Source: Desulfobacterales bacterium (GTDB lineage: Bacteria > Desulfobacterota > Desulfobacteria > Desulfobacterales > JAIPEE01). Taken from it: 64,000 nucleotides of DNA. The position numbers were made by a program, and so were the translations under genes. The notes under the pieces were generated by a model that saw only the letters and a list, made by a program, of their open reading frames with translations, was not told the DNA's origin and did no database searches. The stretch lies in the NCBI GenBank assembly GCA_021737275.1, contig JAIPEE010000010.1, positions 1-64,000 on the forward strand, read 5' to 3'. Positions 26,603 through 36,229 of the stretch are shown piece by piece. Position 1 is the first letter of the stretch; every line of letters starts with the position of its first letter.

Positions 26603-26930
26603 ATGATATGCTTCAATTTTATGTTAATATCCCAACGCCGGATTCAAAAGATTTAGAAACTGAACTCGGAAAACCATCATTTTGAAACAGGCACGCCCAT
26701 ATAAATTTTGGAGATTAGTAACATATTTTTTTTCATAGAAAAATATATATGTCTAATTATTTTTATTTTATTTTGATTATTTTAACTAAATTTACAATAA
26801 ACAGACATGCGGCAACTGTTTTCATGTTGAAATCATTTTTCTTAGAAGTTATGGGTAACATGATTTCTTTAAAGTGTTAAAAAAAGTTCTTGTCTGTAAT
26901 GTCATTAAAACGAGCAATCTCAGGATAAAT
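26603..26930. other. divergent spacer carA / glnE
   Basis: This 328-base AT-rich region separates carA from the preferred glnE start. No recognisable gene, sigma54 site or strong palindrome was found. A GTG at 26874 is in frame with glnE and would extend it by 19 residues, but it lacks a good ribosome binding site. Confidence 0.4.
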
Positions 26931-29810
26931 ATGATTCAGAAGCTACCCTTACCGGAGCAACTGGTAGAAGACGGGCTTAATAAATGGAGCCGGTTTTGCG
27001 AAGCCGCTGCCCGTAATGAAATAACCATCACAGATGAGGTCTTTTTTGCTGAAGAGGCTCAGCGTGTTTTTGCGTTTAGTGATTACGTCCCCAAAAGATG
27101 TACCCAGAATCCCGGTATGCTGATCGACCTTATAGAAACAGGCGACCTTTACAGACAATATTCATCAGAAACCTATCGAGAGAAATTGTCAGCCATCACT
27201 TCGGCTGTACAGGAGGTTTCTGATCTTGGAGAGTGTCTCAAAAGATTCAGAGCTCGTGAAATGGTTCGGATTGCATGGCGGGATCTGTCCGGCCGTGCTG
27301 ATCTCGATGATGTGATGACATGTATGACCTGGTTTGCGGATGCCTGCATAGATATTTCTCTGTCAATTCTTTTCAGGCAATTCTGTGAAAGATATGGCAA
27401 GCCCTTAAATAATAATGGCGTTCTGCAGCAGCTTGTTGTTATCGGCATGGGTAAACTTGGCGGCGTAGAGTTAAATTTTTCCTCCGATATTGATCTGATT
27501 TTTGCCTATCCTGAAACCGGTGAAACTGATGGTGGTGAAAATAGCATTAATAATGAGGAGTTCTTTATCCGGCTGGGAAGGGCGCTGATTAAAACACTGG
27601 GGACGTCGACAGGTGATGGCCTGGTTTTCAGGGTGGATATGCGGCTCAGGCCTTATGGTGAAAACGGCCCTCTTGTGATGAGTTTTGACAATATGGAGCA
27701 GTATTACCAGAGCCAGGGGCGTGAGTGGGAGCGATATGCCTGGATCAAGGCCCGGGTAGTTGCCGGCGATGCTGTATCCGGTAAAAAACTTATGATGAGG
27801 CTTAAGCCTTTTATCTACAGGCGTTATCTTGATTATGGTGTGTTTGAGTCTCTGAGAAGGATGAAGCTGAAAATTGAAACCGAAGTTAAACTCCAAAACC
27901 TTAAAGATAATATAAAACTGGGTACAGGCGGTATCAGAGAGATTGAATTTTTTGGCCAGATTTTTCAACTTATCAGGGGCGGCGTAACATCTTCGCTTCA
28001 GGCCCAGCAGATTCTAAAGGTGCTGTTTTTACTGGTTGGGGAGGAGTGCATTACCGAAACGGTATTTAAAGAGCTAAGTTGCGCATATGTCTTTTTGAGA
28101 AATGTTGAACACCGGCTCCAGGAGTTTTCTGACCGGCAGATCCATGATCTGCCGGCAGGTCAACCGGACAGACAAAGAGTTGCCATATCTATGGGCTTTA
28201 AATCCTGGGATGATTTTAAAGCCGGGCTCACCGGTCATACGGATATTGTTCATAAACACTTTACAAGACTTTTGGATATCAGGCAGACTGATGAGAAAGA
28301 TAAACACTTTGATGATCTTTTATCTGGAATCTGGCTTGGAGACGCTGGTCCAGAAAGGGGGAGTGAACTGCTTTCTGCTGCCGGATTTGAGAAGCCGGAT
28401 GATCTTCTTCGCCTGCTGGCAGATCTTAAAGAAGATCCCGCAACACGTGCCCTTAGTTCAAATGGTCGGGCAAAGCTGGATCGGCTGGTTCCACATATTC
28501 TAAATCAGGCAAGCAAATCCGATGACCCGATTCTTACTTTAAATCGTATTATCGAACTTATTAAAGTTATTGAGAGAAGAACAACATATATTGATCTGTT
28601 ACTTGAAAACCCGCAGGCATTGATCATTCTTGTAAAGCTGGCCGACATAAGCCCGTGGATTATTTCATTTCTTGCAAAGCACCCGGTGCTGCTGGATGAA
28701 CTCCTTGACCCGAGGACACTTTATCGTCTGCCAACAAAATCGGAGCTTGAAGAAGAACTTGATCATCGGATAGCATCCATACCGGCTGATGATCTGGAGT
28801 ATCAGATGGAGGCGCTCCGTATTTTTAAACAGGTTAATATTTTAAGGGTTGCAGCAGCAGACGTTACTGCTGCGATGCCGCTTATGCGTGTAAGCGACCA
28901 CCTTTCAAATATTGCAATAACGGTTGTAGATAAAGCACTTGATATTGCGTGGAATCACCTTACAGGGATTCACGGTATCCCGTCCTGTCGGCATGAGGGT
29001 GAGATCAGGGGCCGGGGTTTTGCCGTTATTGCTTATGGAAAACTCGGGGGTATTGAGCTGGGTTACGGTTCGGATCTGGATCTTGTATTTCTGCATGCCG
29101 GCATTAATGCTCCGACAAAAGGCGGTAGTCGTCCAATAGACAGCCATCAGTTTTTCATGCGTCTTGGACAGCGCCTGGTGCATATTCTCACAGCGCATAC
29201 ATCTGCAGGAAGATTGTATGAGACGGATATGCGACTTCGTCCGAGCGGCAGTTCCGGTCTGCTGGTCAGCCATGTTGAAAGATTTCGTAACTACCAGCTG
29301 AAAATGGCGCGAACCTGGGAAAATCAGGCTATTATCAGGGCAAGACCAATATGTGGAGACGATAGTCTGGCCAGGTATTTTGATAAGATCCGTTCCCAGG
29401 TTCTTTCAGACAAACGGGAAGAAGTTGCGCTGAAAAATGAAGTTACAGATATGAGAGAGCGACTCAGAAGCGAAAATATAATGATTCGGCCGGGCATGTT
29501 CGATCTCAAGCAAGGGAAGGGCGGCATTGTTGATATAGAGTTTCTTGTCCAGTACCTGATTTTGCTTAACGCCTTCAAACATCCCTCTCTTGTTATATGG
29601 ACCGATAATATCCGCCTGCTGGAAACGCTTGCAGCGGAAGCGGTGATTAGCAATAAAATGGTCGGTCAGCTTAAAGATGCTTATATTATATACCGTTCAG
29701 ACGTGCACAATCTTGATCTGCAGGAAAAACCGGAACTTGTTCATGAATATAAATTTCGGGCGTTACGTAAATTCGTAATTTCTGTTTGGGATGAAATTTT
29801 TAATAGCTGA
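26931..29810 (+). CDS. glnE: glutamine synthetase adenylyltransferase / deadenylylase
   Basis: GlnE attaches and removes AMP on a tyrosine of glutamine synthetase in response to glutamine and PII. The protein has two nucleotidyltransferase domains. The first carries GMGKLGGVELNFSSDIDLIF and the second AYGKLGGIELGYGSDLDLVF, each with the DxD metal pair and followed by a helical PII-uridylyltransferase-like region. I chose the ATG at 26931 because AGGA lies six bases before it, giving 959 residues, close to the 946 of E. coli. It precedes glnD, glnB and glnA. Glutamine synthetase here keeps the target Tyr, so the control circuit is complete. Confidence 0.95.
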   Translation: MIQKLPLPEQLVEDGLNKWSRFCEAAARNEITITDEVFFAEEAQRVFAFSDYVPKRCTQNPGMLIDLIETGDLYRQYSSETYREKLSAITSAVQEVSDLGECLKRFRAREMVRIAWRDLSGRADLDDVMTCMTWFADACIDISLSILFRQFCERYGKPLNNNGVLQQLVVIGMGKLGGVELNFSSDIDLIFAYPETGETDGGENSINNEEFFIRLGRALIKTLGTSTGDGLVFRVDMRLRPYGENGPLVMSFDNMEQYYQSQGREWERYAWIKARVVAGDAVSGKKLMMRLKPFIYRRYLDYGVFESLRRMKLKIETEVKLQNLKDNIKLGTGGIREIEFFGQIFQLIRGGVTSSLQAQQILKVLFLLVGEECITETVFKELSCAYVFLRNVEHRLQEFSDRQIHDLPAGQPDRQRVAISMGFKSWDDFKAGLTGHTDIVHKHFTRLLDIRQTDEKDKHFDDLLSGIWLGDAGPERGSELLSAAGFEKPDDLLRLLADLKEDPATRALSSNGRAKLDRLVPHILNQASKSDDPILTLNRIIELIKVIERRTTYIDLLLENPQALIILVKLADISPWIISFLAKHPVLLDELLDPRTLYRLPTKSELEEELDHRIASIPADDLEYQMEALRIFKQVNILRVAAADVTAAMPLMRVSDHLSNIAITVVDKALDIAWNHLTGIHGIPSCRHEGEIRGRGFAVIAYGKLGGIELGYGSDLDLVFLHAGINAPTKGGSRPIDSHQFFMRLGQRLVHILTAHTSAGRLYETDMRLRPSGSSGLLVSHVERFRNYQLKMARTWENQAIIRARPICGDDSLARYFDKIRSQVLSDKREEVALKNEVTDMRERLRSENIMIRPGMFDLKQGKGGIVDIEFLVQYLILLNAFKHPSLVIWTDNIRLLETLAAEAVISNKMVGQLKDAYIIYRSDVHNLDLQEKPELVHEYKFRALRKFVISVWDEIFNS

Positions 29811-29874: not shown

Positions 29875-29924
29875 TGATTACATTATTGTAATAAGTTAAT
29901 TTATATATTACAATAATGTAATCA
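29875..29924. promoter_or_regulatory. 19-bp inverted repeat made of two palindromic boxes, putative upstream activating sequence
   Basis: The arms 29875-29893 and 29906-29924 are perfect reverse complements around a 12-base centre. Each arm contains its own palindrome, TTACATTATTGTAA (29878-29891) and TTACAATAATGTAA (29908-29921). The pattern is thus two operator-like boxes with centres 30 bases apart. They lie 80-125 bases upstream of the sigma54 promoter at 30001, the usual enhancer position. They do not match the NtrC box. Confidence 0.7.
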
Positions 29925-30000
29925 ATGGTTGTTTTTTTGCAATAGTGTAAAAACAGCATAATTATTTGAAATAACAAAGTTAAATGCGTTTTAGCTGATG

Positions 30001-30016
30001 TGGCATGACGATTGCT
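30001..30016 (+). promoter_or_regulatory. sigma54 (-24/-12) promoter of glnD-glnB-glnA
   Basis: TGGCATGACGATTGCT has GG and GC exactly ten bases apart and differs from TGGCAC-N5-TTGCT only by C to T in the -24 box. It lies 45 bases before the glnD start codon. It would put the PII and glutamine synthetase genes under a sigma54 activator. Confidence 0.82.
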
Positions 30017-30060: not shown

Positions 30061-32694
30061 GTGTCAGTATCGGAAAAAAATGGAAAAATATCTTTAAGCC
30101 CGGCGGCAGCTGATTTATACACTGGTAAGGCCCGGCTTATTAAACAATTTTTAAAGGGCAGTGTTTCAGATTTTTTACTGGAGCATACCCGGCTTATGGA
30201 TAATTATTTTCGTGAGCGCTATGAAAAAAGTGTTGTAGGCCCCTTTATAGATATCAGTAAAAAACCGTATGTGGTAATCGCACTTGGCGGATATGGCAGG
30301 GAAGAGCAGTGCGTTCATTCTGATGTGGATGTGCTTTTTCTTTTTGACCAGGCTGTCCCGGATGAAGCGGAACCCCTTATGCGGGAGATGATTTATCCGT
30401 TATGGGATGCAGGGCTTGATGTCGGGCATGCTACACGCTCCCTTGAAGAGACTGTTCAGGGTGCGAATGAAGATATGGATATCCTGACACCTCTTCTTGA
30501 TGCCCGGTTTGTCTGCGGCATTTCATCCCTTTATACTAAACTGGTTGATCAGCTCCATGAAAGAATACTTAAAGTACGTGCAGATGATATCATTGCATGG
30601 CTAATGGAGAGAAATAAAAAAAGGCATGACCGGTTCGGTGATTCTACAAATCTGCTGGAACCCAACCTTAAGGATGGTCAGGGCGGCTTGAGAGATTACC
30701 ACACCATGCTATGGATTGCACGGATAAAGCTTGGACTGAAAAATTTTCAGGATTTTAAATATCAGGGCTTTCTCCTACAAGATGAGTTTCACCGGTTTTC
30801 CAATTCGCTAAAATTTATCTGGAATGTCCGAAATCAACTGCATGAACTGACCGGCAGAAAATGCGATCAACTTCATTTTGAATACCAGATTCGTCTGGCC
30901 AGGGCTTTAAAATATAAAGGTATCAATGATCACGAATCTGTTGAGAAGTTTTTGGGCGATTTGCATTCAAAAATGTCCTTTGTCAAACAGCAATACCTGA
31001 TGTTTCTTTCAGAGACAGGATATTTAAGACAGGGCAGGGGACGGAAAAAAATAGTCACGTGCAAGATTGAAGGCCTGAATGTAAATCGGGGTCAGCTTGA
31101 ATTTTCAACAGCTGAAAAGATCTTGGAAGACCCGCTGCTGTTAATGCAGATTTTTGAGGAGAGCACACGCCTGAAAATCCCCCTCAGTGTTTCAGCAAAA
31201 CGATTGGTCAGGGAATTTAAGTTTTTAGTTAATGACAGATACAGAAAAGGCAAAGATGTTATTAAATCTTTTGAAAAGATCCTAATAACCCCTGACAACA
31301 CCGGATTTAATGTTCTGACTGAAATGTTGAATACCGGTTTTCTTGTACAGTTTATTCCCGAGTTATCGAGTATTATTAATAAAATTCAGTATGATGAATA
31401 CCATATCTTCCCGGTTGACAAGCATGTCCTTAGAACTGTGCAGACAATAAAATCCTTTGGTGAGCTGGATACGGTTTCCAGTGATAGCCTGCCGGTCAAG
31501 CTTTATAAAAAAATGTCAGGCAAAAAGCTGCTTTTATGGGCAGCCCTGTTGCATGATATTGGCAAAGGGAAGTCCAGCAGTGGACATGCTGAGGTAGGTG
31601 CGGAAATAACACGTAATCTTCTGGAGAGAATGGAATTCAAGCCCAAACAGATTGAGACCGTCTCTTTTCTGGTTGAAAAGCATCTCCTTTTAATAAAAAC
31701 AGCGACGCGAAGAGATCTGAACGATGAAGAGACCACTCTGGTCTGTGCCCGGAAGATTCAGAATACGAACCGGCTGACAATGCTTTATCTGTTAACGGTT
31801 GCAGACTCCATAGCGACCGGACCCAAAGCCTGGAATGAATGGACCGCCTCCCTTTTAAAAAATCTTTATTACAAGGTGATGGATATTCTGGAAAAGGGAG
31901 AACTTGCATCCTATGAAGTGGTTGAAAGCATTGAAAGGAAAAAGACCGGCGTGCTTGATTCAGCAAAGACGGAAGAACAGCGCAATGATCTTGAAAAAAA
32001 TTTTAAATTTATGTCTCCCCGTTATCTGTTGTATGCTGAAACAGATGATATCCTGCGTCATCTCAGCCTCTTCAAGAGCCTCGGAGATGATGACTTTGCC
32101 TGGGACATAGCCGGTGAACCGGATGATAACACCCGAACCGTAACCGTTTGTGCAAAGGACCGGCCCGGGCTTTTTTCAAGAATTGCAGGGGTGTTTACAC
32201 TAAACAGTATTGATATTCTGGATGTTCAGGTATTTACATGGCGTAACAAGGTTGCACTGGATATTTTTAAGGTGATGCCGCCACCGGACCGGATATTTGA
32301 AAATGAACGGTGGGCCCGTGTACGGAATCATCTTGTGGATTCTCTGGCCGGGAAAAAGGATCTCAAAAAAGCGCTTGAAAAGAAGATGAAGAGCTACAAA
32401 CCGGTTCAAAACCGTGTCAAAAGACGACCACACCGTGTAGATGTGGATAATAAGAGTTCAAGCTTTTTTACTATTATTGATGTTTTTACATATGATTTTC
32501 CGGGACTTTTATTTGCCATCACCGATGCACTTTTTAGAAGCGCTCTTGATGTGAGCGTTGCCAAAATTGCAACAAAGGTTGATCAGGTGGTTGATGTCTT
32601 TTATGTACGGGATCTTAATGGTGAGAAGGTTGATACACCTGAACAGGTTGAGGCTATAAAGTCAGCCATACTGAACGTATTACCGGAAATTTAA
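30061..32694 (+). CDS. glnD: PII uridylyltransferase / uridylyl-removing enzyme
   Basis: GlnD is the primary glutamine sensor; it adds UMP to PII when glutamine is low and removes it when glutamine is high. The 877-residue protein has the nucleotidyltransferase domain with GGYGREEQCVHSDVDVLFLF (about 78-98). An HD hydrolase domain carries LLHDIGKGKSSSGHAEVGAE (about 496-515). Two C-terminal ACT domains begin TVTVCAKDRPGLFSRIAGVF and DVFTYDFPGLLFAITDALF. It starts with GTG, preceded by AGGA at proper distance, and lies behind a sigma54 promoter. The length and all four domains are normal. Confidence 0.95.
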   Translation: MSVSEKNGKISLSPAAADLYTGKARLIKQFLKGSVSDFLLEHTRLMDNYFRERYEKSVVGPFIDISKKPYVVIALGGYGREEQCVHSDVDVLFLFDQAVPDEAEPLMREMIYPLWDAGLDVGHATRSLEETVQGANEDMDILTPLLDARFVCGISSLYTKLVDQLHERILKVRADDIIAWLMERNKKRHDRFGDSTNLLEPNLKDGQGGLRDYHTMLWIARIKLGLKNFQDFKYQGFLLQDEFHRFSNSLKFIWNVRNQLHELTGRKCDQLHFEYQIRLARALKYKGINDHESVEKFLGDLHSKMSFVKQQYLMFLSETGYLRQGRGRKKIVTCKIEGLNVNRGQLEFSTAEKILEDPLLLMQIFEESTRLKIPLSVSAKRLVREFKFLVNDRYRKGKDVIKSFEKILITPDNTGFNVLTEMLNTGFLVQFIPELSSIINKIQYDEYHIFPVDKHVLRTVQTIKSFGELDTVSSDSLPVKLYKKMSGKKLLLWAALLHDIGKGKSSSGHAEVGAEITRNLLERMEFKPKQIETVSFLVEKHLLLIKTATRRDLNDEETTLVCARKIQNTNRLTMLYLLTVADSIATGPKAWNEWTASLLKNLYYKVMDILEKGELASYEVVESIERKKTGVLDSAKTEEQRNDLEKNFKFMSPRYLLYAETDDILRHLSLFKSLGDDDFAWDIAGEPDDNTRTVTVCAKDRPGLFSRIAGVFTLNSIDILDVQVFTWRNKVALDIFKVMPPPDRIFENERWARVRNHLVDSLAGKKDLKKALEKKMKSYKPVQNRVKRRPHRVDVDNKSSSFFTIIDVFTYDFPGLLFAITDALFRSALDVSVAKIATKVDQVVDVFYVRDLNGEKVDTPEQVEAIKSAILNVLPEI

Positions 32695-32717: not shown

Positions 32718-33080
<363 letters not shown>

Positions 33081-33132: not shown

Positions 33133-34548
33133 ATGAGTGCAGCAAAAAAGGTACTGGATTTGATCAAAGAGAAGGAACTTAAAGTGGTTGATATCCGGTT
33201 TATGGATTTCCCGGGTGTCTGGCAGCATTTCACAGTACCTGTCTCAGAACTTGACGAAGCAAGTTTTGAGGATGGTTATGGATTTGATGGTTCAAGTATT
33301 CGAGGCTGGCAACCCATTAATGCCAGCGATATGCTTGTCGTGCCTGATCCGGCAACAGCAAAAATGGATCCGTTTTTCAAAATTCCGACACTGGTGCTGA
33401 TAGGAAATATTGTAGATCCTATGACCAGAGAGCCCTATTCACGGGATCCACGTTTTATTGCACAGAAGGCTGAAGCCTACGTGAAAAGCAGTGGCGTTGG
33501 CGATACCGCATATTTTGGCCCGGAAGCGGAATTTTTTATTTTTGATGATGTCCGGTATCAGTCTGATAAAAATGGTGCATATTATGCCGTTGACTCCATA
33601 GAAGGTAGCTGGAATTCAGGCAGAAATGAAAATCCGAATCTCGGGTATAAACCCCGCTTTAAGGAGGGCTATTTCCCTGTACCGCCTGTGGATAAATTTC
33701 AGGATATCCGTACAGAGATGATGCTGGTTCTTGAAGCGCTCGGTATTGATGTGGAGTGTCATCATCACGAGGTGGCATCCGGCGGACAGGCAGAAATTGA
33801 CATGCGCTTTAAGCCTTTGCTCCAGATGGGTGATCAGCTGGTATGGTTTAAATATGTTTTAAAGAATGTGGCTTATCAGCATGGCCATACGGTTACGTTT
33901 ATGCCGAAACCGATTTTCGAAGATAATGGTACGGGTATGCATATCCATATCAGTATCTGGAAAGAAGGGAAACCGCTCTTTGCCGGAAATGAGTATGCCG
34001 GTGTTTCCAAGGAGGCGCTCTATGGTATCGGCGGTATTCTGAAGCATTGCGGCGCGTTGTGTGCGTTTACCAATCCGACAACCAACTCTTACAAGCGTCT
34101 TGTTCCCGGGTTTGAGGCGCCGGTAAATCTGGCTTACTCCAGCAGAAACAGAAGTGCCGCAGTAAGGATACCCATGTACTCAGCATCACCCAAGGCCAAA
34201 CGCCTTGAGTTCAGAACGCCGGACCCGTCCTGTAACGGTTACCTTGCATTTTCCGCTCTTTTGATGGCCGTACTAGATGGCATTGAAAACAAAATCGATC
34301 CGGGTGAACCGCTGGATAAAGATATTTACGGCCTGCCGCCGGAAGAGCTGGCTAATATTCCCTGTGCACCGGGATCCCTTGAAGAGGCGCTCATGGCACT
34401 AAAAGAGGATCATGATTTTTTGCTGAAAGGCGATGTCTTTACTCAGGATGTTATTGATAAGTGGATTTCATACAAGATGGAGCATGAAGTTAAACCTGTC
34501 AAACTTCGTCCGCACCCGTATGAGTTTTCACTGTATTATGATTTATAA
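33133..34548 (+). CDS. glnA: glutamine synthetase, type I
   Basis: GlnA makes glutamine from glutamate, ammonia and ATP. The 471-residue protein is type [14 protein letters not shown] near the N-terminus, DGSSIRGW latch region, GPEAEFFIF metal ligands, the ATP site around [10 protein letters not shown], and [18 protein letters not shown]. The adenylylation site is conserved as [16 protein letters not shown], with Tyr near residue 397. This fits the GlnE gene in the same block (GSI-beta type control). AAGGAG precedes the ATG. Transcription ends at a strong terminator at 34584. Confidence 0.97.
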
Positions 34549-34583
34549 TAAATAGCAGTTGTTAAATCGTTGGAAGATTGAAG

Positions 34584-34624
34584 CGGGAGGTAATATTGAT
34601 TTGCCTCCTGTTTTTTTAATCTTC
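34584..34624 (+). terminator. rho-independent terminator of glnA
   Basis: CGGGAGGT pairs with GCCTCCTG (two G-U pairs) around a 10-base loop, followed directly by seven T (34611-34617). GAAGATT at 34573 and AATCTTC at 34618 can extend the stem, so it may also work for the convergent activator gene. Confidence 0.85.
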
Positions 34625-34717: not shown

Positions 34718-36229
34718 TTATCGATAGTTTCGATAATCAACACCGGATTTTTGTGCCTTATATGAAAACTTTCGTACAGTCGTTTTCAATATTTTAGCAG
34801 CCAGGGTGATGTTTCCCTTTGTATTTTTCAGGGAATCAATGATCATCTCTCTTTCAAGATTGGCAATGGCATCCTCAAGTGACAGGGCGGGCAGTGTATC
34901 CGACTCTGTTCCGGTCTGAAGTGTGGGCGGAAGATGATAACTGTGGATAACTCCGCCGTCACACAGTACTACGGCCCGTTCGATACAGTTTTCAAGCTCC
35001 CGGACATTACCGGGCCAGTGATAGTCCATCATCATGTCTATAGCCGGTGTTGAAAATCGTCTGATATCCTTGTTGTTTTCATGGGCGGTTTTTTTGAGAA
35101 AGTGTTCGGCAAGAAGAAGGATGTCGGTCTTTCTCTCTCTCAGTGGCGGCATATAAATGGGAAACACATTCAGTCGGTAATAAAGGTCTCCCCTGAATGA
35201 GCCCTCTTCAACAGCAGATTCCAGATTTTTATTGGTAGCTGCAATAATACGGACATCCGTTTTCCTGACCGTATGTCCGCCGAGTCGCTCATACTCTTTC
35301 TCCTGAAGCACTCTTAAAAGTCTGGCTTGTATATCGAGGTCAATAGTGCCGATTTCATCAAGAAAGATAGTGCCTTTGTGGGCCATCTCAAATTTGCCCT
35401 TTTTCTGTTTAATGGCACCCGTAAATGCACCTTTTTCATGACCGAAAAGCTCGCTTTCAATCAGGGTGGAAGGTATGGCCGCGCAGTTAACCTTAATAAA
35501 GGGAAATTTTGATCGAGGGCTGTTATAGTGCACCGAGTTTGCAACCAGCTCTTTACCGGTGCCGCTTTCACCACGAATCAGAACAGTGGCATTACTGCTG
35601 GAAACCTGGGAGATCATTTGAAAGACTTCCCTCATTTTATTGCTGTTTCCGATAATATTATTAATGCTGTAACGGTTTTCCAGCTCGTTTTCCAGGCGGT
35701 TTTTTTCATCTTCGAGCTGTTTTTTTTCAAGATGGATGATCTCCAGATTAATGACATGCCGGGCAATCATGGATGACACAACAAACAGGAGTTTTTCATC
35801 CCTGCTCAGGGAAAAATTCTTTTCATAAGGTTTTTCCACACTCAGCGCACCTATTACTTTTTTCCCTTTTTCAATGGGTACACAGAGAAAGGAACGCTCA
35901 GCTCTTTTTTGGTTTTTCGTAATTTTAAAAGATGAATTTTCACTTATTCTGGAGATGCTAACCGCTTTTCCTGACTGAATAACCCTGCCGGTCAAGCCTT
36001 CTCCCAGTTTGTATTTTATTTTTTTTGAAGAAATATTAGAATAATCATGGGCAACCTCAATACTGATTTCGTTTCGGAACGGATCAAGAACGGTCACAAT
36101 ACCATTATCCATATTCAGTGCACTGGAAAGAATATCCAGCACATTGTATAATGCTTTTTTAAGATCAAGCTGTTCATTTAGCGCCTTGCTGATTTCATAC
36201 AGCAGTGTGATTTCTTCAATCTTTTTCAT
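34718..36229 (-). CDS. GAF-domain sigma54-dependent activator (NifA-like architecture)
   Basis: A 503-residue enhancer-binding protein. A GAF domain covers about residues 20-165 and has no conserved phospho-acceptor. The AAA+ domain (about 190-415) shows Walker A GESGTGKE, the intact GAFTGA loop and Walker [14 protein letters not shown] Fis-type helix-turn-helix ends the protein. This is the NifA/FhlA-like layout, but no nif genes are present here. The gene converges on glnA, and the sigma54 promoter and paired palindromes before glnD make nitrogen control a reasonable inference. The signal bound by the GAF domain is unknown. Confidence 0.88.

Follow-up and report, generated by a model that had tools for sequence, protein, structure and literature searches.

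The glnD, glnB and glnA genes of this Desulfobacterales bacterium lie downstream of a sigma54 promoter and of palindromic boxes of the type TTACA-N4-TGTAA, and the question that this locus raises is which regulatory protein acts through these boxes. The sequence-only reading had proposed that PII and glutamine synthetase are here controlled not by NtrC but by another enhancer-binding protein, perhaps by the GAF-type activator encoded convergently at 34718. We analysed the window, i.e., the whole stretch of 64,000 nucleotides to which the positions in Table 1 refer, together with its genome and a comparison set of 242 genomes of the order; the latter are mostly draft assemblies, so the absence of a gene from any of them is soft evidence.

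Table 1. Position of the features of the glnE-glnD-glnB-glnA region in the window
Feature	Coordinates	Strand	Remarks
glnE, glutamine synthetase adenylyltransferase	26874..29810	+	stops 65 bp upstream of the array
19-bp perfect inverted repeat, 12-nt loop	29875..29924	.	not conserved
Box 1, palindromic putative operator TTACATTATTGTAA	29878..29891	.	pattern match; conserved in relatives
Box 2, TTACAATAATGTAA	29908..29921	.	30 bp after box 1; pattern match; kept in relatives
Box 3, TTGCAATAGTGTAA, one mismatch	29937..29950	.	29 bp after box 2
Sigma54 (-24/-12) promoter TGGCATGACGATTGCT	30001..30016	+	93 bp downstream of the box 2 start; geometry conserved
glnD, PII uridylyltransferase, GTG start	30061..32694	+	Pfam; first gene of the putative controlled operon
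glnB, PII protein	32739..33080	+	Pfam
glnA, glutamine synthetase	33133..34548	+	Pfam
Terminator-like hairpin and T run after glnA	34580..34620	+
Fourth exact box, TTACAAAATTGTAA	34694..34707	.	in the gap where glnA and the activator gene converge
NifA-family enhancer-binding protein: GAF, AAA+ with GAFTGA, Fis-type HTH	34718..36229	-	likely cognate activator

The box array and the promoter upstream of glnD

The presence of a box array before the sigma54 promoter was confirmed. The array comprises three boxes, two exact copies of TTACA-N4-TGTAA and one with a single mismatch, with start spacings of 30 and 29; the two boxes originally described are both exact, but the third one had been overlooked. 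The promoter, which had been called near-perfect, is indeed close to the consensus: it carries GG at -24 and GC at -12 with the correct spacing, and it is the top one of seven matches to the sigma54 consensus in the window, the other six having two mismatches each. As in sigma54 enhancers, the sites are repeated, lie about 80-200 bp upstream of the promoter and are kept together with it in relatives.

The 4.26-Mb genome contains 11 copies of the exact single box, versus 12 of the reversed pattern; being no commoner than this control, a single box alone carries no meaning. The other single exact boxes of the genome stand beside unrelated genes or within genes and were set aside as chance occurrences. 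The exact pair occurs once, and the array before glnD is the sole box cluster of the genome. The fourth exact box of the window sits just past the stop codon of the activator gene and has no counterpart in eight relatives with glnA near the end of the activator gene.

The hairpin and T run after glnA suggest that the glnD-glnB-glnA operon probably ends there. On the other side of the locus, carAB is divergent to glnE and lacks a box (none within two mismatches in the carA-glnE gap of the window genome); paired boxes precede carA at two loci of other genomes (L171 and L173).

Boxes 1 and 2 had also been described as the arms of a larger 19-bp inverted repeat. The boxes, their coordinates and the repeat are real (two arms of 19 nt, 29875-29893 and 29906-29924, with 100% complementarity and 12 nt between them), but the repeat is not a conserved unit: it arises from the two boxes as reverse complements of each other plus five extra matching flank bases, this perfect extension is peculiar to the pair of the window, and the flanks mismatch at the other loci. 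Any two copies of a box that is itself almost a palindrome resemble an inverted repeat, and the 19-bp repeat is best read as a by-product with no structure in its own right. It might otherwise be taken for a bidirectional terminator, or for a hairpin in the RNA or a terminator where glnE ends: the strand has a stable predicted fold (-24.8 kcal/mol, z -6.4), and a T run lies a few bases beyond the repeat. However, the stem is AT-rich, unlike the G+C-containing hairpin with an immediate T run of an intrinsic terminator, and neither a terminator-like match nor an Rfam match of note was retrieved; moreover, relatives possess the boxes without the extended repeat, yet keep their spacing and the distance to the sigma54 site, and their pairs stand before different nitrogen genes. 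The lack of a terminator match, of an RNA family and of conservation led us to reject a hairpin or terminator role, which we regard as very improbable. A mobile or repeated element that has no part in control would agree with the palindromic form of the boxes, but the single cluster in the window genome, the lack of additional copies whose flanks are conserved and the strong tie of box pairs to nitrogen genes and sigma54 sites in other genomes leave this explanation a practically negligible probability.

Paired boxes in the genomes of the order

Together with its proposal, the sequence-only reading had recommended a comparison of the regions upstream of glnD or glnA in related genomes, and this comparison revealed that the array is conserved before nitrogen genes with sigma54 sites. 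Exact pairs were found at 13 places in 12 of the 242 genomes, versus none for the reversed control, and pairs with up to two mismatches and a gap of 15-18 in 101 genomes, versus four for the same control. Of the 13 exact pairs, one is at a contig end and the other twelve lie upstream of nitrogen genes: six before glnD, counting that of the window, three before amtB or a cluster with amtB, two before glutamate synthase and one before nifH. The looser pairs added further glnD, amtB, glutamate synthase and nifH cases, as well as type III glutamine synthetase, glnA and carA. The assignment to glutamate synthase is based on the downstream Glu_synthase and GXGXG domains, the first gene of the locus having no Pfam or NCBIfam match; in L081 (8531-13938) the glutamate synthase operon is split, and its first gene, without a match in either collection, is an apparent class II amidotransferase.

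The loose pairs at L046, L057, L059, L060, L066, L170 and L172 have no link to nitrogen genes and may represent chance or other motifs. In L057 and L059, a related palindrome pair (ATACAATATTGTAA/TTACATATTTGTAT) lies between a transporter-like gene and another gene, with no sigma54 site, and is perhaps the motif of another regulator. At a further locus (L169), a box pair and a sigma54 site 90 bp on precede a gene whose product has a methyl-viologen-reducing hydrogenase delta (FlpD) domain; no activator was detected in that genome. Outgroup loci from named organisms had no paired boxes near the activator, and GlnD as a single query retrieved no matches from named genomes.

As for the geometry, 23 of 50 glnD upstream loci have a box pair and, after it, a sigma54 site in this fixed order, versus 0 of 500 shuffles. 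The start-to-start spacing is 31 in 33 of 57 instances and 30-32 in 52 of them; the distance from the start of the second box to the sigma54 site is 87-95 bp in 40 of the 57. Since 31 bases correspond to about three helical turns, the sites would face the same side of the helix. The boxes follow the consensus TTACA-WWWW-TGTAA, in which the ACA and TGT cores are strong, and three-box arrays with 30-bp steps are also present before nifH (L083) and glnK-amtB (L085). These comparisons support the interpretation of the boxes as a putative conserved sigma54 enhancer motif of nitrogen genes.

The candidate activator and the alternatives

The product of the convergent gene shows the domain order of NifA. 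Against the NifA equivalog TIGR01817 it scores 510 bits, below the curated cut-off of 528.85, with residues 7-433 matched and the C-terminal HTH outside; against NtrC (TIGR01818) it scores 357.6 bits, the cut-off being 558.6, and a GAF domain occupies the place of the receiver domain. Its best match among solved structures is 9qq6, a Nif-specific regulatory protein (NifA chain), and it is 35-40% identical to named plasmid-borne NifA proteins. In a small, midpoint-rooted tree of 35 proteins, it falls into a separate clade of 24 rows (support 98/98), which is apart from proteobacterial NifA and comprises other proteins of desulfobacterial and, in some cases, spirochaete origin. NifA-like activators with 46-54% identity to that of the window (L182-L186) occur in Spirochaetaceae, in Treponema and on a contig labelled Akkermansia, a possible case of transfer or mislabelling. 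An orthologue is present in 195 of the 242 genomes, mostly with 65-76% identity among the matches listed, and the N-terminus was found in five further genomes; the residues of the GAFTGA loop are almost invariant among the orthologues.

A box with at most one mismatch is harbored by the own promoter of 29 out of 53 activator orthologues (1.7% of shuffles; reversed pattern 4/53) and by none of 39 promoters of NtrC-type response regulators of the same order (Fisher p about 1e-9). In several orthologues (e.g., TTGCCA-N16-TAT in L085, L092 and L113), a single box occupies the spacer between the two elements of a sigma70-like promoter; this, as far as weak promoter matches indicate, suggests that the activator may repress itself. 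In the window genome, the promoter of the activator gene lacks a box, even with two mismatches allowed. Furthermore, activator orthologues adjoin glnA, glnK-amtB or glutamate synthase in several genomes, and the glnD sigma54 site is kept in one of five loci without a detected activator versus 39 of the 45 others. Genome-wide co-occurrence across the 242 genomes is weak and suggestive (strict box pairs in 89 of 200 activator genomes versus 12 of 42 others, p = 0.06), in part because degenerate boxes escape the pattern. A few box-positive genomes have no detected activator (G152, 98% complete; G190, 91%; G204, 90%; G036, 95%), which incompleteness may, although not certainly, explain. The conservation of the motif, the boxes in the activator promoters and the orthologues beside nitrogen genes thus favor the initial proposal of an enhancer-binding protein other than NtrC, and the protein binding the boxes would be the NifA-like activator.

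The boxes had been distinguished from the NtrC type, GCAC-N-GTGC, and this distinction holds. No convincing NtrC site was found upstream of glnD: the search for GCAC-type boxes there gave two matches only, with three mismatches each and inside the glnE coding sequence. None of 58 genomes reaches the curated NtrC cut-off, which is a strict one.

In principle, the boxes might instead be bound by a two-component response regulator of the NtrC type, such as DVU3220 of Desulfovibrio vulgaris or GnfM of Geobacter, controlling the NifA-like gene as a second tier. According to Rajeev and colleagues (PMC3333781), DVU3220 bound the region of the amtB-PII-glnD operon in a gel shift, was proposed as the nitrogen regulator and has conserved counterparts in sulfate reducers, Desulfobacterium autotrophicum among them; it resembles the present candidate as a proposed regulator of amtB-PII-glnD in a sulfate reducer and differs from it as a two-component response regulator with no known motif, none being given for it by Kazakov and colleagues (PMC4641369). 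Two conserved classes of response regulators are present in genomes of the order, in line with this possibility. However, the absence of boxes from the 39 promoters holds for both classes. The near-universal class is present in the near-complete genomes G022, G049, G072, G020 and G185, which have neither a detected activator nor strict pairs, and it was undetected in the near-complete, box-bearing G003, G046, G058 and G104 (the last with just a 49% paralogue), all four of which harbor the NifA-like activator; the second class is not the top NtrC match in the box-bearing G017, G001, G027, G028, G039 and G052. These data weaken the two-tier scheme, and we deem it unlikely; a DVU3220-type response regulator matches the distribution of the boxes less well than the NifA-like activator does.

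A model for nitrogen control

According to the model that we propose, the array would be the upstream enhancer of the sigma54 promoter of glnD-glnB-glnA. The one-component NifA-family activator probably binds to two or three copies of the 14-bp palindrome TTACA-WWWW-TGTAA, which follow each other at intervals of about three helical turns; the bound activator would form an AAA+ oligomer and open the promoter under nitrogen shortage, a signal probably received via the GAF domain or PII. The single box in the activator's own promoter probably permits self-repression, and in many relatives the system would also drive amtB, glutamate synthase, glutamine synthetase and nifH. Given the array, its conservation, the sigma54 geometry, the link with nitrogen genes and the boxes in the activator promoters of relatives, we consider it likely that the activator of the window acts through the box array on this promoter; beyond these observations, we infer the identity of the binding protein, the nitrogen signal and the self-repression.

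The upstream activator sequence of proteobacterial NifA is TGT-N10-ACA. The candidate shares with proteobacterial NifA the GAF, AAA+ (with GAFTGA) and Fis-type HTH domains, the sigma54 promoters and up to 40% identity (plasmid NifA), but its operator would be ACA-N4-TGT, its putative regulon is mainly one of nitrogen assimilation, its own genome has no NifH over the cut-off, and it belongs to a separate, supported clade. The NtrC-glnA enhancer of enteric bacteria likewise consists of paired palindromic sites upstream of a sigma54 promoter of nitrogen genes, but the box is a different one, the candidate is a one-component protein with a GAF instead of a receiver domain, and no NtrC site was found. 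In D. vulgaris, another one-component activator of the Nif/Anf type, DVUA0143, was proposed for nitrogen genes in a sigma54 regulome study (PMC4641369), but its proposed targets are limited to the nitrogenase operon DVUA0015-DVUA0007 and to DVUA0016. The glnB-glnA genes of Geobacter sulfurreducens are under RpoN control, also from a sigma54 promoter, for which the accessible part of the source describes no such box (PMC2725144).

Boxes stand before nifH in L043/L083 and L058, and the window genome itself (96% complete) has no NifH over the cut-off. In the same assembly (G000), AmtB (PF00909) was not found either, all 14 control genomes being positive. Genomes with glnB and glnD do not usually lack an ammonium transporter, and an assembly gap is perhaps the reason here. 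With no AmtB, no NifH and one box cluster, the system would here serve nitrogen assimilation alone. In this genome, without detectable AmtB or NifH, the probable regulator of general nitrogen assimilation is a NifA-type activator with an operator of its own.

Nitrogen control in Desulfobacterales-like sulfate reducers is largely undescribed in the literature searched, where no earlier description of the box motif was found; this search covered few subscription papers, so one may exist. For the order as a whole, the balance tips towards a scenario in which a NifA-family activator with its own operator took over the job of NtrC, as a self-repressing, general regulator of ammonium transport, GS, GOGAT, PII modification and, where present, nitrogenase, which persists in genomes without nitrogenase. 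The predicted operator, activator and regulon represent a directly testable model and suggest that NifA-type proteins can act as general nitrogen regulators; the motif can also be used to annotate nitrogen genes in many uncultured genomes.
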